Shown one piece after another: positions 4,416 to 55,190 of a stretch of DNA of 64,000 nt. Source of the DNA: Echinarachnius parma (Eukaryota > Echinodermata > Echinoidea > Clypeasteroida > Echinarachniidae). Below the pieces are notes generated by a model. It searched no databases, was not told the origin of the DNA, and saw only the letters and a list, made by a program, of their open reading frames with translations. How positions within the stretch are numbered: position 1 is the stretch's first letter; each line of letters begins with the position of its first letter. The DNA is taken from positions 62,001-126,000 of the forward strand of contig JBAMJV010008256.1 of the NCBI GenBank assembly GCA_037951105.1. The letters run 5' to 3'. The position numbers and the translations under genes were made by a program.

Positions 4416-4839
4416 ATGCTGCTGTGCAAGATGGAGGTATTCTTGGCAGCATTATCATTGCTTCTCACCGTTCAGCCATGTTGTTCATTGTCAGTTCAGT
4501 GTGAGAGGCAAAGTGAACTAGAGACAAATGGGACAGCCGTCAGTGTACAATGTATTGTGGATCAACATTTTTCATTTTACAGTACATACAAGTTAAATCG
4601 ATCCGATGGTACACAGATTGGATATTGTTTTTTCAGCGCCTGCAGTACTCCAAGTACATGCTCATCAACATGTCGAAACGTAATCGATGACAATGACAAC
4701 CCTCATTTCAAACTTGAAGTATGTGGATTTAAGTGTTTGTCCTTCAATATCAAACATCCGCTAGTTGAGTCTGATTATGGTGAATATTACATTCATGTAG
4801 AACAATTACCAGAATTCCTTGCGTTTAACATAACATATG
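4416..4839 (+). pseudogene. receptor family G1, first part (interrupted)
   Basis: This is the 5' part of a family member. A signal peptide starts at 4416 or at the in-frame ATG at 4431, and matches the paralogues in MEV/MDVLLAA. The cysteine-rich ectodomain follows with ETNGTAVSVQCIVDQH, CGFKC and SDYGEYYIHV. The frame is open to 4839, where it is cut inside the codon after NITY by the 11.1-kb transposon. Homology resumes in the same frame at 15958. A later frameshift (about 16110-16120) also breaks the copy, so it is very likely a pseudogene. A secreted truncated product is possible in principle. Confidence 0.85.
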
Positions 4840-4945
4840 GGCTTATGCCGAAAGGGTGGGTAGCGTCGCGTCGCGTCGCGTTGACTTGAACGCGACCATT
4901 CGTCCAAAGCCCCCCCGGTTTTGCCGAAAGGGTGCGTTGGATTGT
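4840..4945 (+). repeat. left terminal inverted repeat of the 11.1-kb element
   Basis: It starts GGCTTATGCCGAAAGGGTGG, runs through three GTCGC units and a CCATTCGTCCAAAGCC segment, then a second GCCGAAAGGGTGCG. It is inverted relative to 15848-15948 with few differences. Confidence 0.9.
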
Positions 4946-5559
4946 TAGGGCGCGTCAGGTCAGATAACGCGACCAAATGGCACATACGGGGGGCTTATTC
5001 CAAATGTACGCGTTCAGAGTCCATGCCAACAGCGCGCGCGCCTGTTACGTACACTGTACGTAAGTACGTTGCGGTACCGCATATTATATGCATGATCGAT
5101 GCACGGTATATTATATATCAGAGCCGTATGTTACGCGCGCCGCGCCACCTGCACTGCTGCATGCTGCCGCGCCGACGTCGCGTAAATATACGTGGTACGT
5201 GTATGCGATATGCATGGTGGATCGATCGCGAGCTGCAAGAGATGGAGAGAGGCTGGACATCTTCGAGCTTCCTGATCACTTTTGTGGTGAGTTTATATGA
5301 GTATTCCTGCATATTATCGTGTTTTTTGTGTAGTGTTCAAGTATACCAGTAAAATTCTCGACAAACCCTGAACCTGCATGCGTGCAGCTAATCTTTGTCT
5401 AGACAGTCATGACTGTAAACACTACCGAGTAACGTTTTATACAACATGAGCCATGGGCATGCCCATTTCATGTCATTGCATGAATTGAATGGCAAAAGGT
5501 GGCCAGTTCTGTCATAATTATGCTTTCTGGCATAATTTTGACCCTTTTAGCATAATTCT

Positions 5560-5840
5560 GGTTCGAAGATCCTGACCTCGGCCTCGGAATTTGTGTAAAA
5601 ATCCTGGTCTCGCCTCGAAAATTTGGTACTGGACCTGGACCTGGTCTCGGTCTCAAAAATGTCGAAAATTCTTAGTCTATGCTTTGAAAAATTACTACGA
5701 CTACCCCCCCCCCCCCCCCCCGCTTACACTCCCAACCAATGGGTCCTGGTCTAGACCTCGAAAATTTGGGACTGGAGACCTGGTCTAGGCCTCGAAAATT
5801 TGGGATGGGACCAGGTCTCGGCTTCGAAAATTTTCTACGA
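5560..5840. repeat. degenerate CTCGAAAATTTGGGACTGG tandem repeat
   Basis: Units of roughly 30-40 bp with cores such as GGTCTAGGCCTCGAAAATTT repeat several times around a C run (5705-5721). Related GGTCCTGGTCTAGG units lie inside the hAT-like MITE at 868-1060. It is noncoding; long frames over it are artefacts. Confidence 0.7.
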
Positions 5841-5841
5841 C

Positions 5842-5946
5842 TGATGGTGATGATGATGGTGGTGGTGGTGATGATCGATGATGATGAAGATGATGATGAT
5901 GACGATGATGATGGACTGGTGGTGGTGGTGGTGGTGGTGGTGGTGG

Positions 5947-5980
<34 letters not shown>

Positions 5981-6803
5981 GAATGATGGTGGGAGTGGTG
6001 ATGGTGGTGATGATGATGGTGACCGTGACGCAATAATGATGATGATCATGATGGTGGTGGTGGTGGTGATGATGATGATTGATGATGATGGTGGGAGTTG
6101 TGATGGTGGTGATGATGATGATTGATGATGATGGTGATGGTGGTGATGATGATGGCGGTGGTGGTGATGATGGTGACCGTGATGCGATGATGATGGTGGT
6201 GGTGGTGGTGATAATGGTGATGATGATGATGATGATGGTGATGAGGATGAAGATGATAACAATGAAGATGATGATGGTGCTGGTGGTGATGATGATGGTG
6301 GTAGTGGTAATGATGGTGATGATGATGATAATGGTGGTGGTGGTGGTGATGATGATGATGGGGGTGGTGATTATGATGATGGTGGTGGTGGTGATGATGA
6401 TGATGATGAAATGATGATGGTGGGAGTTGTGATGGTGGTGATGATGATGATTGATCATGATGGTGATGGTGGTGATGATGATGGCGGTGGTGGTGGTGGT
6501 GAACGTGATGCAATAATGATGATGGTGGTGGTGGTGGTGATAATGGTGATGATGATGATGATGGTGATGAGGATGAAGATGATAACAATGAAGATGATGA
6601 TGGTGCTGGTGGTGATGATGGTGGTAGTGGTAATGATGGTGATGATGATGATAATGGTGGTGGTGGTGGTGATGATGATGATGGGGGTGGTGATTATGAT
6701 GATGATGGTGGTGGTGGTGATGATGATGATGATGATGATGATGGAGGTGGTGGTGGTGATGATGGTGTTGGTGGTGGTGATGATGGTGATGGTGATGGTG
6801 ATG
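5842..6803. repeat. GAT/GGT cryptic microsatellite with higher-order period
   Basis: Almost 1 kb is built only from GAT, GGT and close variants. Non-repeat markers recur: GGTGGGAGTTGTGATGGTGG appears near 6090 and 6420, about 330 bp apart, and GACCGTGACGCAAT-like segments also recur. A larger block was therefore duplicated inside the array. Met/Val/Asp and His/Ser frames on both strands are low-complexity artefacts. Confidence 0.9.
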
Positions 6804-8121
6804 ACAGGAGCTGGTACATGTCAGTTAGAACAGCTTACCACCTGTTTAATATGTTATTTTTAATATGTTTATTTGCTGACCTCTCACCCATCCCCGCCCA
6901 CCCCCTGGATCCGCCCTGACCCCCTTACCAGTGAAGGGCGGGAATAATGGTGTCCAAATGATCGTGTCCTATATAAAGGCCTACGTTGGAATTGAAAGCA
7001 AATTTTAAAAATAGAATGAAGAGGTGACGAAAATGGGCGGGAAAATCTATAAAGGCCTACCTATACATAGGAGGTTTAACGGTCAGGTGGTGCATGAGCT
7101 TAATTTATCACTTTCTTGAGGATATTATTTTTAAAATTTGTGATTGGATGACAAAGTTTTGTGGCATACGCTGTTCTTCGGCTTCCATGATTTTTGTCTT
7201 TCTTTCTCCTTCTCGGCATTTAATCATTATTGCACATTTCATATAAATTTACAAGTCATATATAGTTGTTACGATTGGTTACAAACTTCGGTTTATATGA
7301 TAATGCGTTACATAATTATGTAAAAAAGGTAATGTCACTTTGATGTTCGTGTTCTAAAATTCATGCATTCTCTTATTCAATTGTATTTCCTATTAGATTC
7401 TTCATTCAACTAGAGCGGAGAAAACAGCCCGACCGAGTTTGATGTCCACTTAGTCTTACTCTTAGATGTGCTACAGCCTACTATAGGGGATCTACCCGAG
7501 CATGTGCATGATCCGAGTTCCTGAGAGCATACCAACTTCCAAGTACCTGATTTCAACTGAGTAAGTTTTGTCAGTGTTATGGTGAAATGCTTGGCTAGAT
7601 GTGAATTATCCAGTCAAGCTCTCCATTCTTCACTTTGACCATGTTGACAGTCTTGCCACATGCAGTGATACAAAAATGCACAAAAACCCAAAAGAAACAT
7701 TTTGGCAACCATGCCAGTACAGATCACTCATGCATGCTTAGACTGGAAACAGGATAGAATAGAAAGTATTCTAGGTTGTAAAAAAAACAACAACAACAAC
7801 AAACAAAAACACCAGGCTATTCAATCTGGAAAATATCAGGAAACAGAGAAATTTATAGAAATTCTACAGAAAGTTTTGTTTCTAAAACTAACAAGATGAT
7901 CTGAAACTTTCTAGTTATATTTCTTTTGTCAGAATCTTGTTTGCTGAAGAAAGGTATTAATTCTGAGCACTTGCAAATTGACTAAAAGTATACCTTTAAG
8001 CTCGACTATAGGACCTGTGTCTACAAAACACATCCACACTGACAGGTTCCCAAGCATACATTTGTAGATTTCAAATAATGTTTGAACATAAAAATGCAAA
8101 GCTCTCAAAACGTCATGACGG
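6804..8121. other. no gene recognised inside the 11.1-kb element
   Basis: Noncoding by eye. A 65-codon frame at 7702-7899 has a lysine/asparagine-rich stretch caused by an AAC repeat and no recognisable domain. Confidence 0.5.
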
Positions 8122-8452
8122 ATGTGGTGTGGCAAGATTGGTGTATGCCCGTCCCATTTGTACTTCAGCAAGACAATTAATCCACATTGCTGCTCTCTAC
8201 CATATCTACCCAGGTGTATAAATGGGGACCTGGTACGTAGGAGGTGAAAGCCTTTATTATGTGAATGATCTTCTGAATGCCCATGAGCCGCTTGGAAGGG
8301 ATGCTCCCCAGGGAGTGGAGATGGTACACACAATGTGTGCTGGTTTGCATTGTATCCTATGACCGGGTAATAATATCATTGTAAAGCGCTTAAGAGATGA
8401 TTATCAATCATATTAGGCGCTATATAAATCAAAACATTATTATTATTATTAA
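8122..8452 (+). mobile_element. tRNA-derived SINE, copy B (head partly deleted)
   Basis: It shares the SINE body with copies A and C (TTCAGCAAGACAATTAATCC, GGTGTATAAATGGGGACCTG, CTCCCCAGGGAGTGGA) and the tail TTAGGCGCTATATAAATC and then ATT repeats. The start (GGCAAGATTGGT) jumps directly to the segment after the B box, so the pol III promoter is lost. It lies inside the 11.1-kb element. Confidence 0.85.
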
Positions 8453-8525
8453 CAAATCATGCCATTCCATTCCATATCGTGATTATGAAAAACACTGGCT
8501 ATTCCCGACTTAAACAAAACCAAAC

Positions 8526-8606
8526 ATGGTCCGATGGTAGGGATCGAACCAGGGATCTCTCCCGTCATAGTCTGATGCTCTACTGACTCAGCTATCTCGC
8601 CTCCAT
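8526..8606 (-). repeat. tRNA-like relic
   Basis: On the minus strand it has a D-arm-like TAGCTGAGTCAGTAGAGCA and a T-arm-like GGTTCGATCCC. The anticodon stem and acceptor stem do not pair, so this is a decayed tRNA or SINE head and not a working tRNA gene. Confidence 0.5.
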
Positions 8607-9027
8607 TGGTTTAGGAATGGACAATCAGTGCAGTCGTATCCTTCTGATGTGCACACGAAACTTAGTTATGCATCTTGTGCACACGTCACGTAACTATTTG
8701 AGTTCGGCTTTGAATAGCTGGCAAGGGTGGTCTTTTTTTAGGCACAAAAAGTTTAAAAAAAAACTTACGTTTGATGTAATTTGATACCCTTTGGCTATTA
8801 CCTCATTTAAGGTAGTAGCATTTATCAGTACAAGGATGAGGGTCATACGTCAAGGCATGGTGATTTGCATAGCTGGAGGGACAAATAAACAAACAAACAG
8901 ATCTCTCTGTTTTAGTACTATAGATAGAAAGAAATGTCAGCCTAATTTTGTTTCATATTTTGCATTGCTTTTTTATTGCTTTTTATCCACAGTGTACTAA
9001 AGTCACCTCTCTTTCATTTTATGTTAG

Positions 9028-9093
9028 GGTAATATTCATCTCTTCTGAGGAGGAGGAAGGAGAAGGAGCATCTGAGGTCACGGCTCATGGAGA
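9028..9093 (+). pseudogene. possible captured exon A
   Basis: A splice acceptor (TTTTATGTTAG) precedes and a strong donor (GTAAGT at 9094-9099) follows. One frame stays open and encodes an acidic stretch containing ISSEEEEGEGASEVTAHG, ending in phase 2. Joined to the acceptor at 10574 the frame continues for about 27 codons (NPDEVFMAGGPTAFRERVQH and on) and then stops. The product is not recognised. The splice signals and composition suggest part of a real gene carried inside the transposon, now decayed. Confidence 0.4.
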
Positions 9094-9329
9094 GTAAGTT
9101 GGCAAAGTGATTATAATTTTGTCATGTATACATATTGTCCCCACTAAACACATTTGACAACATTCAAGCAATCTCTAATTTTCCGGGGCGACGAGTGAGG
9201 TAGCTTGTGGGTAATAATATTTCGGCCAGATGTGATACAAAAAAGTGCAAATTTGTGCGTCATGTGTTCATGATGGATTAAATGACACATTTATTCAGAA
9301 CATGTTTTCCCCGGCATCCCCCCACAAGC

Positions 9330-9440
9330 ATAGGCGTACTGGGGGAGGGGGTGGGGGGGGGGGGGGGGGAGGTTCAACCAAAACATACATTTGTAGATGG
9401 GGGTTTGGGGGGTTGAACCCCCCCCCCCCCCCCCCTCTCG
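9330..9440. repeat. paired G-run / C-run inverted segment
   Basis: A long G run (about 9342-9371) followed by GGTTCAACC faces GGTTGAACC and a long C run (about 9419-9435), with TACATTTGTAGA between. The inverted arrangement looks like a small element; no target duplication was found. Confidence 0.5.
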
Positions 9441-9758
9441 CCTTTGACCCAAAAATAATTGTTTTAAGCATTTGTTTTTCATTCAATCAAGAGTAACTTG
9501 TCATGGCAAAGAATGATCAATTTCTTGTACTGTTGTTTCTCTGTCTGAGAGCCGATCATATGCTGGAAGACACCAAACAATCAGTTGGTGCAAGCAAATT
9601 TAGACTATACCTTCAATGCATGTAGTTGTCTATTTTGTTCCTTGTCTAGCCTAATTCAATATATTTCCCTTTGTTGGAAATGGTATGAGGTATATATGCA
9701 TGCACATACTTTGAAGCATTTAACACTTCCAGCATGACTCCTCTACTCCCCCTCCAAC

Positions 9759-9834
9759 CATGGGCGTAGATACTTACGTAATACCTATTCTCCCTGACTG
9801 TTGAATGGGTATCAATGACAGATCTACGCCCATG
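9759..9834. mobile_element. 76-bp MITE, CATGGGCGTAGAT ends
   Basis: Ends CATGGGCGTAGAT and its complement form a short palindrome. The flanking 8-mers CCTCCAAC and CCTCCAAT match at 7 of 8, so an 8-bp target duplication is likely. A second member (25212-25313) has a perfect 8-bp duplication. Confidence 0.85.
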
Positions 9835-10574
9835 CCTCCAATATATAAAAAAAAAAAAAAAAGCATAGCAGGACTAGAGACTGCTTTTAGCTATACCGCC
9901 ACACATCGATCACACAGCTATATCAATGTACTCTGATCGTCACTGAAAACTGAAGAACAGAACAAATGGGGTTGTATTTTTATCTTACCTGACCGAACGC
10001 TAAATTTAGGAATAAAAATGGTTCATCCATTTGCATGGTACATGTGGTTGCTGTGTGCTTCGATGGCATCTTATAAATCCATATCGCAGTAGGGTTTCAC
10101 AGTTATTTTGTTATTGATGACATACTCCTAATTTCAACACAGGAAAATATCATTAGATAAAAGCCCCCTCATCTACCCAACTCCCCCCCCCCCCCCCTCC
10201 CCCCCCCCCATGGATTGCTAACCTAAATGTATCCAAATGAGACAACCTTTACTCTCCAAATGCACCCTTTTAGTTGGGTGTTACAGATAATGAACGCAAC
10301 ACTCCAAACATCCTGTGAAGTAAGCCATAATGGTTATAGTCCCAGTTGCTATTTCAAACATTAAATGAATGCACTTGAATCTTCAGGGTGTGCATTCACT
10401 GACCACAGAAATCAAATGTACCATACATTGACCAAATAAAACAAAATTGGTATGTACTGTTGATGTGTAATGTGCACAACTTGTTTTTGTGGTCATGCAA
10501 TTTGTGGGAATTGCACTGTATTATTTTTACAATTTAACAAGTGTATTTTTGTTTTTATTACTTTCATTCTTCAG

Positions 10575-10867
10575 AAATCCAGATGAAGTCTTCATGGCAG
10601 GTGGGCCTACAGCTTTTCGTGAAAGGGTCCAACACTTTCAAGCGACCAAAGCTTGAGGAGGCTGTAATCTCAAGTGATTCATCAGACGAAGAAAATCACC
10701 ACTCCAGTAATGTTGGACCAGCATTATACAGGCACAAGTGGCATGTCTTCAAAGAAGAAAATACCTACTTCAAAGACAGTAAGCGGATAGCAAAGACACT
10801 GCTGTTCCCATCAGTACAAGTGAACAACTCTGTACCAGTTGGTTGTGCCAAGAATTGTGCTTCTTGA
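10575..10867 (+). pseudogene. possible captured exon B
   Basis: It is preceded by a pyrimidine-rich CATTCTTCAG acceptor. The long frame here encodes KRPKLEEAVISSDSSDEEN, a charged acidic/basic segment typical of nuclear proteins, and runs to a stop at 10865-10867. This frame is offset by one base from the frame expected after exon A, so either a frameshift has occurred or the junction is different. ISSDSSDEE echoes ISSEEEE in exon A. No family is recognised. It is more likely a gene fragment than a transposase. Confidence 0.4.
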
Positions 10868-11067
10868 TAGATTCTTCTCAACTTCGCTTTAAAGAAGATC
10901 TGACATGTGATGAAACTGGGAAATAACAAAAACCCAGTAGGGCCAAAAGTGAGATCACCATAGATAAGGATGACAATGTTGGATCCTGCGAGGATATTGG
11001 GGACAGCAGGAAGTATACACTAGTGCGTAAGTCTATAAGCACAAGGATACCCCTAACTTTCAAAGAA

Positions 11068-11510
11068 CAACATGAATTTCATCAGGTTGACAATGTTAAG
11101 GCTTTGTATTTTAGATAATTGTAATGTGATCTTATGATCTACCACAAAGGGAGGAGAACGTTCTACACTTTATCTGTCTTTGTCAATATGTCTCTGATCT
11201 TGTTACATGTACCATGATGCTATGAACCGCTGGGAATTGCCATCAAACCAAACTGTATCTTTTCTGCGATGTTGGGGGTAGTTGATCTTTAATAAAATAA
11301 CAATCATTAATACATTAATGGAAGTAAAACACTTAACAGAATGGGAAGAACTGTAAGTTTCATTGCCATCAAAGTTGTTACATGTAACATTGATGAAATG
11401 ACACATGACATAAGGGAGATACTCCGGAGATTATGGCATTTTAGGTTTTGTTTATGTTCTTGATTTGTAACTGTCTTTTACACTTGTGAAATACTCAATG
11501 TAGTAATACA
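11068..11510. repeat. ~440-bp direct repeat, copy 1
   Basis: It starts CAACATGAATTTCATCAGGT and ends near AATACTCAATGTAGT. The same sequence, with small indels, recurs in direct orientation at about 12249-12680. Its position downstream of exon B could make it duplicated 3'-untranslated DNA; that is inference. No coding frame is conserved between the copies. Confidence 0.85.
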
Positions 11511-12248
11511 AAAAAGTTAAATGCCTAAGTACAGGTACCCAAAGAATCTTTAAGTGGACTGACAGCTAGAAGTTGTCAATTTCATAATTAATTGTTATGA
11601 TTGTCTTGATGCAGAAGAATGTATCATGCTATTGAATGTTTTATTTTCATATGTTATTGTTGCTGTTGTATTACAGTCATACAGTCACAATATAACCAAA
11701 CAGGTGTTTGCTTTATTGAAAAGAGGCTGCAGTGAAGAATACTGCAATGTGTAGGCAGTACTGCTGAAACTGATGTTCTCTTGGATGGGCTAAAAAAAAA
11801 AGATGCACTCTCTGTCAGATTGTACTTGGACTGAAAATTCAATCATATGTCAAAAATGTCAAAGGGGTGTTCCATATATATTTTTCAGATTTTTGTATCT
11901 GAAAGTAAATGAATTAATTACAAGGATGTGTTTAAATCTGATAACAATATGATTTGAACAAGGATAATTACAGATGCACAAACTCAATTTATGTGGTAGT
12001 GTATTTCTATTATAATTTAGGGACGGAACAATATGCAGACATGCATAAATAGAATACTTTCGACACTGTTCAGCAGTTGGTATTGTAATAGTCATATACT
12101 GCCACATACCGGTAGTAGGAATGTGTGCACCCCACAGACAGCACTTGCATGTATGACCATTCTGTTCAGTGGAAGCAATAACTGTTTTATGTCATATTGA
12201 TGATTATGCTATGTATCCTCATATTGTCATGATGGTTCATTGTTGGCA

Positions 12249-12680
12249 ACATGAATTTCATCAGGTTGACAATGTTAAGGCTTTGTATTTTAGATAATTG
12301 TAATGTGATCTACCACAAAGGGAGGAGGACGTTCTACACTTCATCTGTCTGTCTCTTTGTCAATATGTCTATGATGCTATGAAATGCTGGGAATTGCCAT
12401 CAAACCAAACTGTATCTTTTCTGCGATGTTGAGGGTAGTTGATCTTTAAAAAAAATAACAATAAACAATACATTAATGGAAGTAAAACACTTAACAGAAT
12501 GGGAAGAACTATACGTTTCTTTGCCATCAGTAATTGTTACAAGTACCTATACATACATGTAGCATTTATGAACTGACAAAAGGGAGATATATACTCTGGA
12601 GATTATGGCAGTTTTGGTTTTGTTTGTTTTCTTGTTTCTTTAACTTTATTTTGCACTTGTGGAAGACTCAATGTACTTAA
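12249..12680. repeat. ~430-bp direct repeat, copy 2
   Basis: This is the second copy of the 11068-11510 segment, sharing GGGAATTGCCATCAAACCAA and ATTAATGGAAGTAAAACACT. It differs by small deletions (for example near 12305 and 12370). Confidence 0.85.
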
Positions 12681-14423
12681 CAAAAAAGAGTGAAATTGCA
12701 GGTACCAGTCTCAACGCATTTTTAAGGTCATGATTGTGATAGATTACCAGTTTAAATCTCACTAAACTTATGAGTGGAAAACACCTGACGATATCTAGTT
12801 ATAGCGAGAGGTGACATACGTTACATGCTAAATTATGTATTTGAATCAAAACATCAGATAAGAAGAGGGGCATAATTTGAATTTGTTGAGTTCTGCTGTT
12901 TTAAAAGATCAAAATTAGCTGTTCCAACTTCCTGCCTAAATATCTTGTCTACATTATATTAAGTTGAGTTGTGTTCATGTATTGGTGTTCTTTTTGAATT
13001 GTTGCTGTTTGCTTGTTTACTTTATTTATTTCATTGCCATCAAAGTTCTTACCAGTATGCATTTTTAAGAGTAAATTATTGTGACTGATGGAAATGCCTT
13101 ACATTTGTGGTCAAAAGTCATAGGACGCCTGCAAAATTATTTCCGGTCTCCAAACAAGACGATTTTGTTTACTTTTATATTGGGATTAACATATTTCACG
13201 AGATCATCAGGACAGTGATCATATTAGATCAGGAAAATGTTGGTTGACATGATATATTGGTGGAATTATTGTACAGGGTGGCCCATGAAAATGCAGCCGA
13301 GGACTGCAGCATTTCCCGAAATGTCTTGCTGATTTAATCATGTAACCACTTGTTAAATGGGGTAAATATAATTTTCTTTGAGAAAGATTTATAACCAGAT
13401 TTTTACTTTTGCCTCCAATGTTGTATGTTTTTGTTACGCTGATTAATGACTCAAAATCATTGCTAAAATGTTCTTGTTTTGTGCCAATGTTTTGCTAATC
13501 TTCCTGATTTCACCATGAAAGCCTTTTATCATTTATATTAATTAGTTTTTATTCTATCACTTAAGATAAATGCTGTCAAAAAATGAAAATGTCACAAATG
13601 TGCATCACTTCGAAGGCAACAGTATGTCGGATATGAGCCTTGAAATCGGAACCTAGCCGTATTAATTTAAGTTCTTGGTCTCCACATTCTGCAAATACAT
13701 TTTTTTTTATCTGAGAAGATGATTGATTTTTTTAATGAGATAGGTAATTTGAAGTGTTTATACGTTGATGTTCATTTGTTGAATGTTAGAATTTAACGTT
13801 GATTGTGACAAAGTGTGTAAATATACACCAGAGGATGGCGATGGAATAAGTCACAACGCTCATACTCTGTTCCATCTTGCCTTTCCATTCACCTAAGAAA
13901 AAGAAGCATGCATTTTTAAAATTCTGACAGGAGCGATTTCATGGCAACGTAATTTTCAAAAATGTAATGTGTTTTTGATTTGTTACTGAAACAAAGTTCA
14001 TTTTAGACTCGGTAACACCTCAATAATGCGATAAATTTAGTAACATACTTTGTCATGGAAAGATGTACGCGTCTAGCACAGCCTCATGCAGTCTGGTCAT
14101 GAATACAATAAAAACAGCCTCTAAACGTTCAAAATGTCCTTTAACAAAAATTATTTATTTCAATGTACATTTGTGTGTGTATGTGTTTGTTTTGGATGTT
14201 TCCACAAACCCGTGTTAGTTTGTGTACACGCCATTTGTGGCACGTCATTGTCCCACATGTGAATGTGAACATTAGTTTGAAACTACCTAAATTATGGATC
14301 ATTTCAACTTCAAATAAAGCTTTTCTTGGTATTCCTCTTGCCAAAAGTAAAGATTAATTCAAACATGAAAGAAACTGACCAGAAATATATTGTGATTAAA
14401 ATAGGGCAAAGATGGAATTCCAA
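12681..14423. other. no gene recognised inside the 11.1-kb element
   Basis: AT-rich noncoding DNA. A lone TACAGGGTGGCCCATG at 13274-13289 looks like one end of a TA-type (mariner-like) element, but no partner end was found nearby. Confidence 0.5.
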
Positions 14424-14494
14424 CAAGATTCGAACCCGAGACCTCCGGATTGCTAGACCGGTGCTCTTCCGACTGAGCTATATAAAACCCTAGT
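14424..14494 (-). repeat. tRNA-Ala(AGC)-like relic
   Basis: On the minus strand the D stem (GCTC/GAGC) pairs and the anticodon arm CCGGTCTAGCAATCCGG puts AGC in the loop. A TTCGAAT T-loop is present. The T stem is weak and the acceptor stem does not pair, so I call it a tRNA pseudogene or SINE head. Confidence 0.5.
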
Positions 14495-14872
14495 ACGGTG
14501 CTCGTCCCTGAAACCCCTTAATTCTCATTGCCCGAGTGGTCAGAAGCTTTTATAAACCAAACATAAAGATAATGACAGGGGCAAAGTGTCCACCGTGCAG
14601 TCAGCTTTTTACTTCCCAGTGGAATGGCAGTTCAAGCAGAATTTGTTTTACAACACGTAAGAAAACTCAATATTTATTTACAAAGTTCATTTAATTCGGC
14701 AAATAGAAAAAACAGTAAAATGAAAATGTGTCGTTTGCCGTGTGTGTGGGTGTGGTTGTATGTTTGTGCATGGATAGTAGGCCTACTAGTACTACTAGTA
14801 CTCGTCTTGTACATGTATACCTCCTTGGTCTATGCATGTGTGTTTGTGTATGTTTGTATGTAGGCTACATGT

Positions 14873-15730
14873 AATAATGCCATTGGAAAAAATGCAGAGA
14901 AAAAATGCCAGTGGAAAAAATGCCAGTAACAAAAATGCCAGTGGTAAAAATGCCAGTGATAAAAATGCCAGTGGTAAAAATGCCAGTGACAAAAAATGCC
15001 AGCGGTAGAAATGCCAGTGGTAAAAATGTCAGAAGTAAAAATGCCAGAGGAAAAAATGCCAGAGGAAATATAACAGTGTAAAAGACTGCAAATCTCTTTT
15101 TTTTTTTCTCCTCAAGATTATGGTACATGCCCCCCCCCCCCAAAAAAAAAAAAAAAAACATTCATGGCTTCAAACGATTAAAATGTTTTAATTTGCCCAG
15201 GATAAAACTTGGTTTTGTAAACGGACTTTGTATTTGTATACACTATGCATATGTAAGTCATCTTCGAAGTTATTAATGGCTATGAACCAAAAAGCTTCTT
15301 GGGGTGTTGATTGCAAAAAAAATATTTTCTGCTGCGCCTGCAACCATTGCCCCCCCCCCCCCCCCCCCACCCACTCTTTACATTCTGGGCATGTCAATGT
15401 GGGCCTTTTGGCTCTCTCACCAGTAAATCAGGGAAATAATGCCCCCTCCCTTCCCCCCCCCCCCCCCCCCTCCCTCCCTCTCAATCGAAGATGAATTATA
15501 AAATGTATAGTGTATGCGAATACAAAGTCTGTCTACGAAATAAGTTTTATTCTGGGCAAGGGAAAGCTTTTTTTTTTTTGGGGGGGGGGGGGGGCATGTA
15601 CCATAATCTTGATGAGAACAAAATAGATTTGCAGTCTTTTACACTGTAATATTTCCTCTGGCGTTTTTTCCTCTGGCATTTTTACCTCTGGCATTTTTAC
15701 TTCTGGCATTTTTACCACTGGCAACAAAAA
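14873..15730. mobile_element. foldback element with minisatellite arms
   Basis: The left arm (14873-15262) and right arm (about 15495-15730) are inverted copies. Each outer end is a tandem array of TGCCAGTGGTAAAAA-type units (left array 14880-15068, right array about 15650-15725). The inner arm contains ACTGCAAATCT, TTATGGTACATGCCCC and ACTTTGTATTTGTATACACT with their complements. C runs fill the centre. Long inverted arms ending in tandem subrepeats are typical of foldback elements. It lies inside the 11.1-kb element. Confidence 0.85.
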
Positions 15731-15768
15731 TAGTTCAAGCAACCTAACAGTACGATCTTTTTTTTTAA

Positions 15769-15948
15769 CACACCCTTTCGCAAAACCGGGGGGGGGGGCT
15801 TTGGACGAATGGTCGCGTTCCAGTAAACGCGACGCGATGCGACGTTCCCAACGCACCCTTTCGGCAAAACCGGGGGGGCTTTGGACGAATGGTCGCGTTC
15901 AAGTCAACGCGACGCGACGCGACGCTACCCACCCTTTCGGCACAAGCC
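15769..15948 (-). repeat. right terminal inverted repeat, duplicated unit
   Basis: Read on the minus strand, this end begins GGCTTGTGCCGAAAGGGTGG. It contains two tandem, slightly diverged units of about 90 bp, each with AACGCGACCATTCGTCC and a C run. The left end has only one full unit, so the termini are asymmetric. Confidence 0.85.
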
Positions 15949-17641
15949 TAACATATGACACAGCAAGTGAAGTAATTAACAAACCCTCGACTAATGAACA
16001 TGATTTCCATTCTGCATCCTCATGGACATCCTCAACCAGGGTTTCAAGCAGCATCCTTGATCCCGGGGCTACACAACTGGTAGGTGGCGGTGTACTATCT
16101 ACCATTCTACAGAAATAGTACAACCACAATTTTCTGACAGAACCATGAATATCCATCCATCGGACGACATTGAAGGTAAACACGCGAATAATGAAATGAC
16201 CTACATTTTGATTATCGTAGCATTATCTGTGGCACTCATTTGTATCATCGGCACAGGACTATATCTTCTAGCGCGAAAACGCACATTTAGTGACAGAATG
16301 AACAGCGACCAACGAAATATTCCCATTGTCATGTCACGGTCCAACCTAGCAAATACGATGCACATGGCGTCCATCCCACCACATCGTACGCTCACATTTC
16401 CGAACGTGGGTAACCTTCCTGGCAACGGTAATCCATCACTATCTAATGGAGGGAATAAACATGATGAAGTTTCGTCATGGTCAATTAATCACGCACCGGA
16501 GTTGCCTCCGAGGACCTGCCCTGGTGACCCAACGAAGAAGCAGTTCCCGGACACCTGTGTGCCATATGAGGAAAGTGGAGCATTCTTGAATACAATGGCT
16601 ACTACGCATGTGAATCGTGTCCAGATTCGTAAAGGTGGGAATTTAGCAGAAATCGATGTTGCGACACTTGGTGCTGTTGGTGGAGGCGTAGATGATGAGA
16701 ACATGTACAGCACGGTGGATGATTGCAAACAGAACGAAGTCACCGGTCTGATGGGTAGTGGTCATAACAAAACAATTCCAACCATCGAGGATATATCGGT
16801 AGATTATAATACTGCTGATGATGAAATGCTTAGTATGTTGTATGCCAAACCAGAAAAGAGAAAGAGGGTGAAGCATCAGAAGTCCAACGATAAATTGTCT
16901 TTAAACATTTCTGCCGAGGTTGATGATTCTGATTACGACGTCCTTAGAGCAAATTTTAGGAAAGAAGAAATTTGCATTGCGCTGAGGTCAATAGTTGGTC
17001 AGCATTACCTAGTCAAGATATTTTGTAACGTAGTAATTTAAGCTTTAAAAGGGTAAACATAGATTTATATTTATGTATAGGCATGACGTGTTTGCACATT
17101 TACATAATTATAAATATGTCACTATAACTATTATAATACTGCGCTAGGCTACCTGATCCATTTTTCGACCAGTTTTTGTCACTCTTGTCCTACGATGTCG
17201 TGTGGGAGCCCAGCAGAATCTCATATTCCAGACGGATACGACGAGACTGCACGTTCACGAGCGATTTCAGACATCCCCGCTACTTCTGATCTCAACGGTC
17301 ACCATGAACCTGACGACTCGTGCCTTGTCGCATCACAGCCTGGACATGCTGGAGAGAATAGCGAAGCGGTGTCAGCAATTCATGAGTATAGTTACTTCCC
17401 TTGCTACCCGGGCGACATCCCAGCTCCAAGAAGTGATTATGGCATCTGCGATGACGTCGGGCAGCTCCCCCTGTTTTCATCGGCGACCCGTACTTCTCTA
17501 GAGCATGGGAGTGGTGCATTGCAAGCCAGTGATGGAGCAAGCGGGAGAGTGTCATCGGAACCCTCGGGCAGAGATCCGGCTCGACTTTACCTGGATGAAT
17601 TCTTTGATTCGTCTGAATACGAGCTGTTGAGTTACAGCTAA
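15949..17641 (+). pseudogene. receptor family G1, second part
   Basis: Homology resumes right after the transposon in the frame broken at 4839: stalk (SSWTSSTRVSSSILDPGATQ), then a stop at about 16116-16118 caused by a small deletion. The tail resumes at 16145 in another frame with transmembrane segment (YILIIVALSVALICIIGTGL), PYEESG, NMYSTV, MLYAKP and SDYDVL. A conserved TTG/GTCA donor at 16997/16998 and acceptor at 17213 remove a 216-bp intron in phase 1. The last exon (17214-17641) has SSEPSGRDP and ends SEYELLSYS, an ITIM-like SxYxxL. Two lesions make G1 a likely pseudogene, although the 16145-17641 part is still well preserved. Confidence 0.85.
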
Positions 17642-18689
17642 AATAAGTCTAGATCGACAAGGTATGGGTGTTACTATCAACATTCAAAACCGGGCCTTAG
17701 CTTTTTATTTGATTGTTCCCATATATGAATGGTTTAAGTCCGTTATGTCTTCTAAAACGTTATTAAGTAATATTCAAGTATCATTCAGTAATACTTAGGG
17801 AGTGATAATTAAAAGGATATAGTTGTGTTTACCTCACACATACAATTTACATAATTGGTGTAGATATCTTTATGATAGGCACATTATTGTGAATATTTCC
17901 GCTCAATATTACTAGCCATACCAATTATTACAGTTTTTGTGATTTATAATCTATTGTATCGATCTAGTAAGGAACTGTTATTAGCATTAATGTAATCAGC
18001 CAATGTAATTATGTTGAAAATTACTGTCATTTATTTTTTGATAGTGTATTCTATAAATTGTTTTGGAAGAAAATTAGACAGTTTTGTTTAAGGTTACAAT
18101 AGGTAATGAAAAAGTGACAATTGATTAAAAAGATATTGTTGTAGACAGGAAAGGATGAAAAGATACGCCAATGTTATTCTTTCAAAATATGTTAATCAAT
18201 TTCGGATCCTTTATTTTATTTAGGGAAATAAACAAAATATTTGAAATTGTTTTTGTAGACATTAAATATAGAAGTAAAGTAAATAAAGATATAATTTGGA
18301 GGACAACAGATGAAGCCATAATTCAAAGGCATGTATAGTGTAAACATCATCATTTGTTGGTATAACATCCTGAAAGTATAATTTGAAGTCAGGCAATTGT
18401 TACTTTGTTCTTACTTTCTCTTTCTCTCTAATTGAACTTATTCAACATTGTGTAAACTGTGTTATTCATTGATGTACTGTTGATGTGTAACTGATGTATG
18501 TTAACTTTATAAGAGAACCAACAAAAAATAAAAATCAGAGTCTAGCCTATTAACATAATCGTAAAAGGAAAATACATCAGCTGGTTAATTTCTGTAAATA
18601 TTATTATTGCGTTAAAGCTACATTGTTTTGAAAAACTGCGTATAAAGAAATTACAGATTGACATTAAAATGATCAACATGTTTCATTTT
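17642..18689. other. 3' flank of G1, duplicated with the gene
   Basis: This noncoding DNA aligns by eye with 40560-41340 and 45690-46640. Shared pieces include GTGATTTATAATC, CGCCAATGTTATTCTTTC / CGCCAAGTATACTCTTTT, GGATCCTTTATTTTATTTAG and ATTATTATTGCGTTAA. These are 3' flanks of the tandem duplication unit. Confidence 0.7.
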
Positions 18690-19136
18690 ACAAACATACC
18701 AATTTATACGACCCGATGGTACACCGATTTGATATTGTTTTTTTAGTTGATGCACTCCACGTGCATGCTCATGAAACGTCACATTAAAACGGGCGTGTAC
18801 ACCCAATATTCAAAGTAACATGAATTATGTGGATTGAAGTGTTTGTATGCAACATTAACAGTCCGCTGGATGAGACCGATTATGGTACATATTACATTCA
18901 TGTAGAACAGTGTCCTAAATTCCTTTCGTTTAACCTAACATAATATGCCACAGTTAGTAAAGTAACTGACAAAACCTGGACTACTGACCATGCTTTCCGT
19001 TCTGTATGGACATCCACAATCAGGATTTCAAGCAAAATCCTTGTTCCCGGAGCTACACAACTGAACAGTGGCGGCGTATGATCCACCTTTTCTAGAGATA
19101 CAGGACAATCAACATTCTCACAAAAGACCATAAAGA
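18690..19136 (+). pseudogene. receptor family relic (middle of first exon)
   Basis: A short decayed copy without signal peptide or tail. Recognisable parts are CGACCCGATGGTACACCGAT, GATTATGGTACATATTACAT (D-Y-G-T-Y-Y), and the stalk with ATCCTTGTTCCCGGAGCTAC. It has several stops and indels. It sits between the G1 3' flank and a LINE fragment. Confidence 0.85.
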
Positions 19137-19654
19137 TCCCTGGTTACTTTGCTTTAGAGGGCGCTTCAAGAACAAATTAATTTGCGAGGTAATTGACAAA
19201 TAAGTGTAATATTTGGAAGAGCACGTGATTTTAAAGCTGAAACAAACTTTATTTCATCAAAATCGATTCAGAAAGAGCTGAAATATCAATGAATATATCA
19301 ATATATATATCAATATATATATATATCAATGAAAATATACTAAAGAGGATGACTTCCTCAAGGCAGAAGCCACCTTGTGTGAAGCTCCAAACAACCGTCC
19401 TTCCATCGTACTACAAAGAGAACCATATGAAGGCTAATATGCGATGTATTTGTTGTTTTGCCTTATGCTTAATATGAAATTATTTGTAAAATTGTATTTA
19501 GTTACTATGTTTTTAAGGTGCCCCGCTTTCAAGCTTTGCTTTCAAGGGGCACCTCAACCATTTGTTGATTTTCTTGTATTTAATGTATTTTGATATTTGG
19601 TTGAAATAAATTAAATAAACCAACCACAAATCAAGTATAATAATAATAATATCA

Positions 19655-42287: not shown

Positions 42288-43712
42288 ATGATGAGGTATG
42301 TTTTGTTGGCAGCATTTTTACTGCTTCTTTTCAGTCATCCATGTTTCCCACTGTCAGTTCAGTGTGATAGGAATCGTGAACTAGAGACCAATGGGACTGC
42401 CGTCAGTGTCCAGTGCATTGTAGATCAATACTTGACCGATTATAGCTCATTTGTATTGAGACGTCCCGATGGTACAGGGATTGGATATTGTGTTTTCAGT
42501 AGCTGCAATACAAGTGACTGCAATTCGCGGTGTACCAATGGAATCGACAGAAATCGTTTCACACTAGAAATATGTGGATACTTATGTTTCTCTGTCGATA
42601 TCAAAGGTCCTCTGGTTGAAACGGATTATGGCGAATATTACATGTCTGTACTCCAAAATAACCAATATCCTACATTTTCTGGGTTTAACCTAACACATGC
42701 CATAATACGCAGAATAACCGACGTAACTTTGACTAATGCATCTGGTATCCGCTCTGTATCCCCATGGATATCAAGCGGCGTCCTTGATCCCGAAGCTACA
42801 CATAGATGGGCTGACAAAATGCGCCCCACTGCTGCTCCACCGTCTAAAGCTACCGATACGTCTACATTTCCTCAAGAAACATTAACGATCGATTTGTCGG
42901 ACGACAGTAAAGGTGAACAGACACACGAGCAATTTACGACACACAACGTGGCTTACATAGCCATTATCATAACTTTAGTGGTGGCTCTTTTATGTAGCAT
43001 CGGAGCAGCACTCTATCTGCTATCACGCAAATTGTCCCAAAGGGAATCGCTCAATCGTGATGACCAGAATCTATCAGCTGCCCTGACTCAATCCAACACG
43101 ATTGAGCCGTTAGACATGACTTCCATGATAGTCCAGCGTCCATTACCACTTCCTAGTGACGATAACAATAGAAATGAACTGGATTCAATTATGGCACTGT
43201 CGATTCATCATAAGGGACCAGGGTTGCCTCCAAGGACCTTCCCTGGTGCTCCTAGCAAGAATCCATCCCCGGATGACTGTATGCCTTATGAAGAGAGTGG
43301 AACCTTCTTGAGCACAGTGGCCTCTACTCTTCTAAATCGCCTTGAGATTGACCGGAATAATGCTAGTGGGACTTCATCGTCAACTGATATTCCGATACTT
43401 GGTGCTGTTGGTGGAGGCGTAGATTTTGAGAACATGTACTGCACCGTGAATAATTGCAAACGCAGTAAAGGCACCGGGCTGGTGGATAATGGTCATACCA
43501 AACCAACTCTAACCACCAAGCAATTGTCGGTAGACTGTAATACTGTTGATGATGAAATGGTATATATGTTATATGCCAAACCAGAGAAGAGAAGGAGGGC
43601 GCAGTATCAGAAGTCCAGTATCAACTTGCCCCTGAACGTTGTCGAGGAGGTGACTATGACGTCCTTAGACACAATTTGGGAAAAGATACAGATTGCAAAG
43701 AGCTTTGTCTAA
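42288..43712 (+). CDS. receptor family G5, first exon (tail frameshifted)
   Basis: One open frame of 474 codons. A signal peptide (YVLLAAFLLLLFSHPCFPL) precedes the ectodomain with TNGTAVSVQCIVDQYL, CGYLCFSVDI and TDYGEYYMSV; the stalk; a transmembrane helix (YIAIIITLVVALLCSIGAAL); then MPYEESG, NMYCTV and MLYAKP. Near 43640 about 7 bp are missing compared with G1. The frame therefore leaves the SDYDVL motif and stops at 43710-43712, six bases before the conserved donor at 43718/43719. The product would be a membrane receptor without the exon-2 ITIM-like motif. It could be functional as such or an early pseudogene. Confidence 0.75.
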   Translation: MMRYVLLAAFLLLLFSHPCFPLSVQCDRNRELETNGTAVSVQCIVDQYLTDYSSFVLRRPDGTGIGYCVFSSCNTSDCNSRCTNGIDRNRFTLEICGYLCFSVDIKGPLVETDYGEYYMSVLQNNQYPTFSGFNLTHAIIRRITDVTLTNASGIRSVSPWISSGVLDPEATHRWADKMRPTAAPPSKATDTSTFPQETLTIDLSDDSKGEQTHEQFTTHNVAYIAIIITLVVALLCSIGAALYLLSRKLSQRESLNRDDQNLSAALTQSNTIEPLDMTSMIVQRPLPLPSDDNNRNELDSIMALSIHHKGPGLPPRTFPGAPSKNPSPDDCMPYEESGTFLSTVASTLLNRLEIDRNNASGTSSSTDIPILGAVGGGVDFENMYCTVNNCKRSKGTGLVDNGHTKPTLTTKQLSVDCNTVDDEMVYMLYAKPEKRRRAQYQKSSINLPLNVVEEVTMTSLDTIWEKIQIAKSFV

Positions 43713-43937
43713 TAGTTGGTCAGCAATATCATGTCAACTTTTCATGTAAATTCATAGTTAACGGTTTGATATCGCCATTCATATTACAGCTTCGTATCAC
43801 CACAAAGGGTGTTCAAATATGCGTCGATAATTAATGATAAGTCACAATAACTAGTAGTATTGTTTTTCTACAAAACCTCATTCGTTTGTTGACCAGCTTT
43901 TGACGCTCTTGTCCTACGATGTTGGGTGGGAACCAAG

Positions 43938-44281
43938 CAGCAGCTCCGTTTGCAGATGGAAACGACGAAATCGCAATTTCACCAGGAAGTTCAGACTACC
44001 GCGCTCCTGTTGATATCAACACTGATCACGACACGGACGAATCTGATCTTGTCGCATCCGGGTCTGGAGAGAATAGCGAAGCAATCGGACCTGCAACCCC
44101 TGCTTCACTAGATCACGTAGCGCATGGGAGTGATGCCTTGCAATCAAATGCCGGAGCATGCGGGAGAGTGTCATCGGAACCCCTGGGCAGAGATCCGGGC
44201 CAATGTTATCTGGAGGAGTTTTTTGACTCGTCTGACTACTCGCTGCTAAACCCACACATGTATAAGGAGTGTCATAACTAA
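43938..44281 (+). pseudogene. G5 last exon, intact but out of reach of the frame
   Basis: It starts after the conserved acceptor (ACCAAG at 43937) in phase 1. It encodes APFADGNDE, SSEPLGRDPGQCYLEEFFDS and SDYSLL, the ITIM-like C-terminal motif. The exon itself is undamaged. The frameshift in the first exon means it is not read in frame unless alternative splicing restores it. Confidence 0.75.
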
Positions 44282-45496: not shown

Positions 45497-45498
45497 TA

Positions 45499-47000: not shown

Positions 47001-47330
47001 TATTGAGTAAATGTATTCTCATTAAAGATCCTACAACAAAAGACCACAATTTCAAAGTGTCAACCATCACACGCATGGCACTGCCATCCCAAGGAAAAAC
47101 GCAGTATCTACACGAATCGGCATTTTCTAGAAACTGAGATATTGACCATTTTGTGTTTTTGCCATAGCCGCTCGGAAATAATAAACTTGTGAAGATTACT
47201 TTAGTGTGTGATTATAGGCTATATATGTGTCTATTTTCTTTCATACATGATAAATTGAATTTTTCGTTTAATTTTGAGATGTTCGTGAAAATGTAGATAC
47301 TTTGGGAAAATCCCTAGTTCGTGACCGATT

Positions 47331-50099: not shown

Positions 50100-50103
50100 T
50101 TAA

Positions 50104-51952: not shown

Positions 51953-52384
51953 TATATGTGACCTTACACCTCAAAACGACCGTTATGTCGCTGTGGTAGT
52001 TTCTCTTTTATCAGCTAAAATAGTCAAATTTTGTTCAAAATATGAGATTCATGATTTTGATATTTCCTGAATAAGCATATCTTAATCTACCTTCTGGGAA
52101 ATTTTGAGCATCAGAAATCATGTTTAAATATTATTTTTTTATTTTATAAATGTGATCTTATTACAGCCCATGAATAGACACAGATCTTTTAAGCCGCCCG
52201 TTTCTCCCTTATTTTAAAAATGCATCAGCCATATTTGATATCTTTGGCATTCATTTTGAAAGGGTTTGCTTTGTCCAAATATGACTAATTATATACCATT
52301 TTAAAGGTAATGACTTCTATTTTAATGTTATATGAAAATCAGCAAAATCATTATTGGTCGTTTTGTGGTGTAAGGTCACATATA
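51953..52384. mobile_element. 432-bp MITE, TATATGTGACCTTACACC ends
   Basis: The left end TATATGTGACCTTACACC, then TCAAAACGACC, is inverted at 52350-52384 with one or two differences. It is noncoding and lies in the upstream flank of G6 and not in that of G5, so it arrived after the duplication. Confidence 0.85.
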
Positions 52385-52926
52385 GTAGTCAACCGAAACA
52401 AATAAACTTATCAACACAAATTATCCCATGAAACAAAATGTTTAAATATAACAGTCAAAGACACAATGAAAATGAAACCAAACACATTCACGTCTTTTGC
52501 AATTATTATGGACAAAAAACATTCCAATAAAACAAAAGAAAATACATTTATCATAAAATATGAATAATAATAATAACATAACTGTATTGTATAGCGCCTA
52601 ATGATTAACAGCCTCTAATAAGCACTTTCATTATTATCAGTGTTGGGATACAAAAGTGAAGCCAATAAATCCCGGACGTAAGGATACTCGTCGATTAAAT
52701 ATTATGATAAATTGACGAACATAAATCATTGGCATGGCACGATAGTCCAGACCACTTGACGTGGACAATCAAACAGTTCTTCTTTTGTCCGTTACTTTAT
52801 TTCAGTACGCTTCACCACACATATCAAATATATTTGATTTGTTTATATCTCCATAAATTACCAGACGAATTCGTATCCCTTGCAAATATATTCACAATTT
52901 GAAGCTTATTAAGGAAACTGTAGACC
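52385..52926 (+). promoter_or_regulatory. conserved upstream block of G6
   Basis: It aligns with the blocks upstream of G1 and G5. ACAAAAGTGAAGCCAATAAA at 52652-52671 is the family box, about 265 bp before the ATG, followed by TCCCGGAC. Confidence 0.5.
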
Positions 52927-54315
52927 ATGATGCAGGACAACATGGGTGGATTGTTGGCAGCATTGTTACTGCTAATTGTAGGTCAACCATGTTTTTCAAT
53001 GTCAGTCCAATATGAGAGGCATCATGAACTAGAGACCAATGGGACGGCTGTCAGCCTAACGTGTACTGTGGATCAACACTTGACAGATTATAGTACATTC
53101 ATTTTAAAACGACACGACGGTACAGCGATTGGACATTGTGTGTTCGGTAGCCATGTAAGCTGCAATTCAAGTGTCTGTGGTTCGTGGTGCTACACTTACA
53201 TCGAACGCAGAAATAAATTCAAACTTGAATTTTGAGGATTTCTTTGTTTTTCCTTATACATTAAAAGTGCCCCGGTTGATACGGATTACGGTGAATATTA
53301 CATCTCTGTAGATCAATATCATAAACTCACTGCGTGGAACCTAACATATACCACAGTAAGTTGTGTAACTGACACAACTGTGCCTAATAAATCTGCTATC
53401 CATTCTGTTTCTTCATGGACATCCACAGCCAGTGTTTCAAGCAGCGTCCTTGATCCCGGAGCTACTCAGCAATTGGGTAACAGACTACTCTCAACTGTTT
53501 CTTTGCCGCCAAATGCTTCTGATGCGTCGAAATTATCGCAAGGTCCATCCAAGGTCAATACATCGGACGACAGTGAAGGTAGACACGCAATCAACGCATT
53601 GATGACCAACGACTTAGTTTTCATATTAAGGATATGTATGTTATTTCTTGCACTTCTATGCAGCGTTGGTACAAGGCTGTGGCTTATACAGCATCAAAAC
53701 AAACGAAATGAATGCCAGAACAACGGTCACGCTTACCTCACTGTTCCTCTTCCGCATTTACGTTTCACTAAGTTAGCCGTGATCTTCACCACGGTGGAAA
53801 TCACCTCAACCATTTTAATAGCTTTCGTCAACATTCCATGCCCTGTTAACTGCCCCCCCCCCCCCCCCCCGAGACCTAGTGGTATTATAGAGATAATCTC
53901 CTCCGGTTACACGCAGTAAACCGATAAGAACGGTGTAAACGGTGATAAAATTCTACTAGCGGCACGAATCTCTCAACCTCTCCTCAGGCCTGAGAAGCGG
54001 ATATTTTCTAACTTGGGTGAAACGTAATGTGACATCACAGAGGCGATAGAAAAGGCCTCCGTGACACCACACCTTATCATTCCTTCGTCCCCAAATGCCA
54101 ATTCTCCTTCTCCCACCGGAGGTCATTTGGCAGATAAACGCACATACCTCGCAAGGTCAGTTCAGCATACACTGCAGCTCCCTCCCAGAGGACGTCGGTA
54201 TATGTCCAACTCTAAACAATCACCGCTGGATAACTGCATGGCATATGAGGAGATCGAGACCGGTTTCAACCTCTTGGCGATCATGGAGAAGACAAGGGTG
54301 ATGCAGCCACAATAG
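52927..54315 (+). pseudogene. receptor family G6
   Basis: A signal peptide and ectodomain start at 52927 (GGLLAALLLLIVGQPCFSM, then ETNGTAVSLTC). Codon TGA at 53233-53235 replaces the conserved Cys of FCGF, a nonsense change. The frame then continues with DTDYGEYYIS, the stalk and a transmembrane region (FILRICMLFLALLCSVGT) until about 53760, where unrelated sequence with a C run (53851-53869) enters. Tail homology resumes at about 54150 (LPPRG, DNCMAYEE) and fades by 54290. Clearly a pseudogene. Confidence 0.85.
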
Positions 54316-55117
54316 GTCTCGTGAAACTTACCATAGTATTGCAGTTTGAACGTCAATCAAACTGTTGACAACTTTTGGAATTCGAACTGCTTGCCTATTT
54401 CTGGTGATGTGATCACTTCAAATGTGGTAAATCAATATTTATTTACCATTGTGAATGGAATGAGATGTATGCAATCTCAATTTATATTATTATTTTTACA
54501 CTGAATAATCGTCTCTTGTCTTAATATCAAGAAATTCCAAGATAGATGAGGTACATTTTTGGTTTAAAATTTAAAATTTCAAAAGTTTCAAATTTTGTTT
54601 CGTCAATGAAGTGATAACTAACTATTGATAATCATATCCTGCAATTTAGGATGGGATCCCACACGTATAACTCTTCGCAGAGAGATGTATTGTGTACATA
54701 TACTCGCCACGAGTCGGGAGACTGACCGCTCCTCCTGATTTCATAATCAACTACCGCTCCGTGGCCCTTATGTGGACAGTGTTAGTAAGAATATCGAGGC
54801 GATATTATCGAGCTATTACTTTAACTTGTAGCGTTCTGCGTAAGCTACGTTTCCCATAAGTAGATCGAAAGTGACTACCATCCAACTGTTTTTGGTAATC
54901 AATTCAATGACTGATATATATTTCAGGATCAATGCATATTTACGTCGAATAGAACAAACATAATGCACAACCAGAACTGTAGTTAAATGGTACTAATGAA
55001 GATTAAATCGATGAGGTCTTAGACATGTCTGGCTATGGATTGCAGGATCCTGCATGGGCCACACGAGTCGCAGAAAGAAATACATCCAACATGTGTACCA
55101 GGGTACTACGTCTAGTG
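54316..55117. other. no gene recognised
   Basis: Diverged DNA between pieces of G6. The NMY-S/C-TV and LYAKP regions are not found. Confidence 0.5.
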
Positions 55118-55190
55118 TTGTATGCAAGAATGTAATGCCCCGAGACTCGAACAGAGATCCGAGCCAACTTTACCTATAAGTATGACTCAT
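55118..55190 (+). pseudogene. remnant of the G6 last exon
   Basis: CAGAGATCCGAGCCAACTTT then ACCTATAAG matches the coding sequence for GRDPxxLYL in other last exons, with a stop at the position of the acidic residue after YL. Confidence 0.6.

Follow-up and report, generated by a model that had tools for sequence, protein, structure and literature searches.

A receptor gene array in Echinarachnius parma

The 64,000-nucleotide stretch analyzed here (the window; contig JBAMJV010008256.1 of assembly GCA_037951105.1, positions 62,001 to 126,000 of the forward strand) comes from the echinoid Echinarachnius parma and carries a tandem array of genes that, judged by sequence, belong to a very large family of single-pass cell-surface receptors, for which an overall explanation as paired receptors appears probable. 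The shared plan given in the original prediction (signal peptide, cysteine-rich ectodomain, stalk, single transmembrane (TM) segment and long tyrosine-bearing tail) is present in full. Mapping of the window by tblastn with 38 family proteins as queries yields six paralogues (A, B, C, G4, F, and H) and three fragments, in agreement with the at least six and at least three first counted; the array was placed as far as 55190, and its last family piece stops at 54276.

The majority of the window copies are damaged. The sole copy whose main open reading frame (ORF) runs from signal peptide to tail without a frame change is G4 (33274..34605, +), which encodes an eight-cysteine domain of predicted immunoglobulin (Ig) type, a stalk, a TM segment, and a tail; its final exon-1 tyrosine motif is lost, reading SDDDDR where others have SDYDxL. 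Paralogue F (42288..43613, +) is open as far as LYAKP, with a frame change immediately ahead of SDYD, the last tyrosine motif. Paralogue A is split in two by a mobile element: its 5' part (4416..4841, +; 74% identity to amino acids 1-140 of member L010) holds the signal peptide and ectodomain, and its 3' part (15945..16945, +; 89-91% identity to L010) the stalk, TM segment, and a tail with PYEES, ENMYSTVDD, LYAKP, and SDYDVL, with one frame change near 16106. Paralogue B, located by tblastn (21950..23337, +), has a frame change between 22456 and 22465. In paralogue C (28830..30141, +; tblastn match 28894-30141), a frame shift separates the signal peptide from the ectodomain, the TM segment carries an arginine (VVIIRIWTL), and the tail tyrosines are replaced to give EDML, LFAKP, and FDND. 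Paralogue H (52936..53751, +; tblastn match 52975-53751) has TGA (53233-53235) at the Cys77 codon, arginine at the same TM site (VFILRICML), and a lost tail. The three fragments, all found by tblastn, are a piece of a family member at 18671..19138 (+; 44% identity to L011), an ectodomain start at 39651..39839 (-; 51% identity to L033), and a piece of family tail at 54031..54276 (+; 35% identity to L061).

A second conserved ORF lies 3' of the main ORF, is matched by tblastn at E <=1e-3 in 50 of 50 member loci, and is probably the last exon. In the window it follows A (17114..17638, +), B (23573..24070, +; partial, with homology at 23650-23952), C (30318-30524; a weak match), G4 (34757..35326, +), and F (43904..44278, +). 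Those of A, G4, and F terminate in FFDxSxYxxL (FFDSSEYELL, FFDTSDYDML, and FFDSSDYSLL, respectively). No GT/AG splice pair tried between the main exon and the downstream ORF gives an in-frame junction in more than 22 of 45 members. Past the downstream ORF, and elsewhere beyond the unit, sequence divergence climbs.

Family size and searches for relatives

Genome searches covered the 1.2-Gb assembly, with members taken non-randomly from the best-scoring matches. The G4 query gave 704 first-look candidates; all of the best 90, which were scored, have E <=1.2e-69, which excludes chance, and 83 of them contain no internal stop. The tail and ectodomain queries gave 361 and 525 candidates, of which 150 each were scored, and the merged 90 + 150 + 150 matches represent at least 252 distinct places on 78 contigs, a figure that includes haplotype duplicates and broken copies and counts a split gene such as A twice. 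Codons for DYGEYY are present at 230 places, and the reversed pattern at 6. From 50 member loci, a 38-member set was formed of those whose ORF carries one or more tail motifs, leaving out L018, L024, L028, L029, L038, L042, L045, L046, L055, and L057-L059 (12 of the 50).

The family had not been recognized from the letters, and hidden Markov model searches likewise matched no known family at cut-off. Pfam gave no family at its own cut-off for seven window pieces and nothing better than E 0.033 for 36 members of the set termed A1; V-set was matched by one of these 36 (E 0.15), Ig cut-offs were not reached, and LRR-TIR, NACHT, and SRCR domains gave no match at E up to 10 in the seven window pieces. 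PDB sequences returned no significant match (best profile-search E 0.21). A full-length query against 5.8 billion proteins, including nr and UniRef echinoderm proteins, drew 4124 candidates with none at E <=1, in a search that may miss distant relatives because it relies on shared 5-residue words. An ectodomain profile run against the large protein set drew 930 candidates, none at E <=1, under a length rule that omits longer relatives, so that of the two negatives the full-length one carries the weight. Within the open-licence literature, no title or abstract opening names such a family among the matches listed; IgTM is described there as a skeletal-branching protein of Lytechinus.

A predicted V-type ectodomain with eight cysteines

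Structure prediction gives the ectodomain the form of a V-type Ig beta sandwich, bearing out the Ig-type fold first proposed from a D-x-G-x-Y motif and a B-strand cysteine. AlphaFold2 with set A1 produced nine strands at a predicted local distance difference test score (pLDDT) of 85.6 and a predicted template modeling score (pTM) of 0.79, and with window copy C placed first (38% identical to G4) it gave pLDDT 83.1 and pTM 0.76. Antibody and nanobody entries top both the Foldseek matches of the first model and the VIA-align matches; since the PDB is rich in antibodies, these matches indicate V topology rather than antibody kinship.

Across 36 ectodomains, eight cysteines (6, 23, 48, 53, 58, 62, 77, and 81) are invariant or at least 90% kept, as are the residues of D-x-G-x-Y ahead of the F strand (Y98 invariant, D94 and G96 at least 90%). 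The B-strand Cys23 is invariant, and the F-strand site (G4 residue 100) is mostly isoleucine and a cysteine in 0 of 36, so that the classical B-F intersheet disulfide is missing, as the reported absence of the second canonical cysteine implied. The original prediction spoke of six further cysteines; G4 has seven beside that of the B strand, eight in all. Paralogue B lacks both Cys48 and Cys62, and its relative L021 lacks Cys48 only; the joint loss in B suggests that these two cysteines pair with each other.

Variability, computed as entropy with L047 set aside, is higher in the modeled BC, C'C'', and FG loops, which correspond to the complementarity-determining region (CDR) positions of antibodies. 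These average 2.32 bits against 1.55 at all other sites (p 0.0004) and 1.57 in other loops (p 0.001).

Two classes of tail

As read from the genes, the family divides into two classes, a division introduced here: one with a tyrosine-motif tail and one with an arginine in the TM segment and, in the majority of copies read, a tail that is short and lacks the middle tyrosine motifs. In most members read, the tail is about 200 residues long and combines a PELPPR motif with four conserved tyrosine motifs. In the alignment of 38 members, the tyrosines of PYEESG, ENxYxTVD, and LYAKP are each kept in all 36 sequences that have a residue there, and PELPPR-like motifs occur in 32 of the 38. SDYDxL is found in 31 of 38, a count that is not independent because the alignment stops at that motif; it matches the consensus of the immunoreceptor tyrosine-based inhibitory motif (ITIM) in most long tails read. 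By consensus we take SDYDxL and the downstream SxYxxL to be ITIM-like, LYAKP to be a YxxP site for the Crk SH2 domain, and PELPPR to be an SH3 ligand.

The short class was traced from ectodomain matches with short frames. The two genes of L062, together with L063 and L065, have an intact ectodomain and a TM segment resembling VVFVVRILVLSVAI, with arginine at one fixed position, and their frame stops 51-96 residues past the TM window with none of the four tyrosine motifs; their relatives L064, L066, and L067 (contigs C660 and C13110) have a VVFIVIILALTVAI-like TM segment and a long tail. Twenty further loci were picked for stop-free frames of 251-417 amino acids that reach the TM segment. Arginine occupies the site in 11 of them and histidine in two (L083 and L087), while two have lysine or arginine two residues earlier and five an uncharged TM core. 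Five of the 11 arginine loci (L070, L071, L073, L075, and L078) keep a terminal tyrosine of C[DH]YED type, with the three middle motifs gone. Arginine is found at the site in 0 of 40 long-tail members (37 aligned members with a TM segment plus L064, L066, and L067), a difference whose Fisher p of 4.9e-7 is too small, given the relatedness among loci and the selective choice of the 20. Both classes share contig C660, with arginine at L062, L065, L068, L069, L071, and L074 and none at L064 and L066.

Four groups have arginine where their nearest sampled relative does not: the L062 group, L082, window copy C, and window copy H. Over 473 bases, for example, L082 shares 88% identity with L079, whose residue at the site is isoleucine. 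The codon at this site is ATA (isoleucine) in long forms and AGA in arginine forms, except AGG in H.

These data also bear on an alternative in which signaling by every functional copy is positive, the long tails serving phagocytic or adhesion receptors through YxxP/Crk and PxLPPR/SH3 and the arginine short forms being decoys or pseudogenes in decay. LYAKP and PELPPR, which we read as YxxP and SH3-type motifs, are indeed present in the tails; short-form tails terminate at differing points; and internal stops interrupt 7 of 17 matches with at least 74% identity over at least 225 of 280 residues (12 shorter matches left out). Decay would sit poorly, however, with the single TM position of the arginine, shared by the four short genes read at the outset and 11 of the 20 further loci, with its occurrence in four groups beside arginine-free nearest sampled relatives, and with similar ectodomain constraint in short and long forms (dN/dS, the ratio of nonsynonymous to synonymous change, 0.53 in four versus 0.49 in three). 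We consider this alternative unlikely.

Separately, L026, L027, L049, L053, L085, and L086 carry a lysine (arginine in L086) about two residues ahead of the arginine site. Several of these have long tyrosine tails and perhaps constitute a third, dual-signal type.

Selection and recombination

Codon-model estimates of omega are 0.40 for the ectodomain, 1.01 for the stalk, which is the fast-evolving segment, and 0.65 for the tail. Positive selection across the whole ectodomain was considered and is unsupported, with this low omega and dN/dS below 1 in all pairs. The same estimate, together with 83 of 90 best matches being open and the conservation of cysteines and tail tyrosines, opposes the idea of a largely relic family, its repeats spread through segmental duplication and having little function. 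The broken majority of window copies and the higher divergence beyond the downstream ORF and unit speak for that idea, which we regard as highly improbable.

Tree tests reject a single history for ectodomain and tail. The halves of the tail, and likewise the halves of the ectodomain, also reject one (without L047 and L026), which points to pervasive recombination rather than one breakpoint between ectodomain and tail. Ectodomain relatedness does not follow the class division, which is what recombination moving ectodomains between tails would produce: L065 and L067 are identical at 103 of 113 residues and L063 and L066 at 100 of 112, and the 12 cross-class pairs span 79-91%, compared with 82-88% and 79-84% within classes (four short and three long genes).

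We also considered whether tails have been homogenized. The proportion of synonymous differences (pS) is 0.118 in the tail versus 0.241 in the ectodomain for pairs picked for close tails, 0.120 versus 0.125 for pairs picked on the ectodomain, 0.169 versus 0.262 for pairs picked on the whole protein, and 0.496 versus 0.566 over all 666 pairs (without L047). Picking pairs for close tails biases the first of these comparisons, and we claim only a modest difference. Near-identical copies on separate contigs (L026/L027 and L014/L018) resemble alleles.

A paired-receptor interpretation

Under the definition used here, that of PMC3533184, the predicted proteins have the sequence hallmarks of paired inhibitory and activating receptors: similar ectodomains, a short class with a charged TM segment, and clustering. 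The likeness to paired or inhibitory receptors had already been proposed, and it is strengthened by the arginine class, mostly short-tailed, that stands beside the tyrosine-tail class. We favor, as the likelier account, that the family is built as paired receptors, with self/non-self recognition on coelomocytes as its most likely role. Inhibition by long tails, activation of arginine forms via an adaptor, and the immune role itself are what we infer.

The mechanism would run as follows. Ligand binding by the CDR-like loops would lead Src-family kinases to phosphorylate the long tails, and SH2 proteins (a SHP-type phosphatase, Csk, or Crk at YxxP) would in turn damp or fine-tune the cell. The arginine form would pair with an adaptor having an acidic TM residue and so activate, and recombination would maintain common ectodomains on both classes.

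Several observations weigh against this interpretation. The strict ITIM pattern is present in 33 of 38 members, a number inflated by the alignment cut at SDY. As we understand the ITIM consensus, it fits only SDYDxL and the downstream FFDxSxYxxL; ENxYxTV and LYAKP fall outside it, and the long tails therefore need not be inhibitory. Arginine is absent from 9 of the 20 shorter-frame loci, the arginine locus L082 retains PYEE in the 501 bases fetched (its tail read in part), and both window copies with arginine, C and H, are broken. For an adaptor of the T-cell receptor zeta or Fc receptor gamma type, PF11628 gave a best E of 0.99, below cut-off. Ectodomain dN/dS is under 1 in 127 of 127 pairs compared, and the C''-D stretch, which is no CDR position, is also very variable, as are parts of strands C and C'.

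A more specific form of the paired-receptor interpretation, on which we find the balance even, is an independent echinoderm repertoire like that of natural killer (NK) cells: hundreds of single-V-domain paired receptors with varying CDR-like loops and ectodomains shared by recombination, in which activating forms would be born repeatedly by isoleucine-to-arginine change (ATA to AGA) followed by loss of tail tyrosines. If true, NK-style signal balancing would operate in an animal without lymphocytes, in a V-domain family of a size comparable to the TLR, NLR, and scavenger-receptor expansions, and the paired design would have arisen repeatedly in evolution. The family would then offer a testable system for the birth of activating members from inhibitory ones.

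Other features of the window

The mobile element that splits paralogue A spans 11.1 kb (4840..15948). Direct reading of the sequence shows a 9-bp target duplication, TAACATATG, at 4831-4839 and 15949-15957, and the element has inverted ends of about 100 bp with repeated CGCGACGCGACG motifs; from the length of the duplication it is presumably Mutator-like. Within it lies a TGA trinucleotide array of 320 copies (5842-6804). Elsewhere, a 419-bp unit is tandemly repeated 3.1 times at 47320-48616, and two reverse-transcriptase-like ORFs lie in different frames at 61075-62221 (-), of which the piece at 61877-62221 matches RVT_1 (E 3.2e-16) and its partner has no Pfam match. The ORF at 35653-36093 (-) has no Pfam match at 0.001; to our eye it resembles the end of a Penelope-type element that holds the GIY-YIG endonuclease. 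Outside the window, the mitochondrial contig G000:C14600 measures 19,741 bp, which we believe exceeds the usual echinoid mitochondrial genome and perhaps reflects an overlapping assembly end. At L039 we recognized by eye what we take to be the mitochondrial gene order 16S-COX1-ND4L-COX2. COX1 reads without a stop under table 9, the echinoderm mitochondrial code; out of seven tables, 9 and 14 agree most closely with the best echinoid relative (491 of 517 residues identical, versus 487 for table 4 and 472 for table 5). Among named COX1 relatives, echinoids come first at 95% identity and sea stars reach 92%. On COX1 and its code we reject a vertebrate or prokaryotic origin.

Comparison with known systems

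The vertebrate KIR, LILR, PILR, CD300, and CEACAM receptors, like the sea-urchin family, are clustered and carry similar ectodomains on tyrosine-motif or short charged-TM forms. The comparison holds for design only, the animal being an echinoid. Unlike vertebrate paired receptors, the sea-urchin family has no detected sequence similarity to them, no B-F disulfide, eight conserved cysteines, a single exon from signal peptide to tail, and no adaptor found. It also comprises many more loci. According to PMC3533184, PILRs likewise have a single Ig-like domain, and the activating KIR2DS2 keeps an ITIM relic, to which window copy C with its relic tail offers a parallel.

Among invertebrates, the fester co-receptor (FcoR) of Botryllus is, like the sea-urchin family, of the Ig superfamily (IgSF) in an invertebrate deuterostome, and its tails bear ITIMs or hemi-immunoreceptor tyrosine-based activation motifs (hemITAMs), as described in PMC12065747; it combines a V-type domain with a sushi and two C2 domains, whereas the sea-urchin family has one domain. 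The Alr genes of Hydractinia, a cnidarian, are allorecognition genes encoding IgSF receptors, with 41 members in the account of PMC11999971. Hydractinia candidate genes bear such tyrosine motifs according to PMC12065747.

The same paired architecture could serve, instead of recognition of microbes, kin, gamete, or allorecognition, or developmental cell-cell adhesion, as with Hydractinia Alr or the FuHC-linked receptors of Botryllus, a role that we judge rather unlikely. IgSF families with ITIM or hemITAM tails are tied to allorecognition in both animals in PMC12065747, and the allele-like copies on different contigs fit such a role. Hundreds of places, however, are more in keeping with a wide repertoire than with a small number of allotype genes. 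To our knowledge, sea urchins do not fuse as colonies.

Echinoderm immunity is characterized in the review PMC13428168 by gene expansions of TLR, NLR, and scavenger receptors, and the main text of that review contains neither "ITIM" nor "paired". There, the sea-urchin TLR, NLR, SRCR, and SpTrf (185/333) families appear as lineage-specific germline expansions, some with hundreds of loci. The probable paired receptors described here resemble them in this respect and differ in domain, theirs being distinct from those of the Ig-receptor family.

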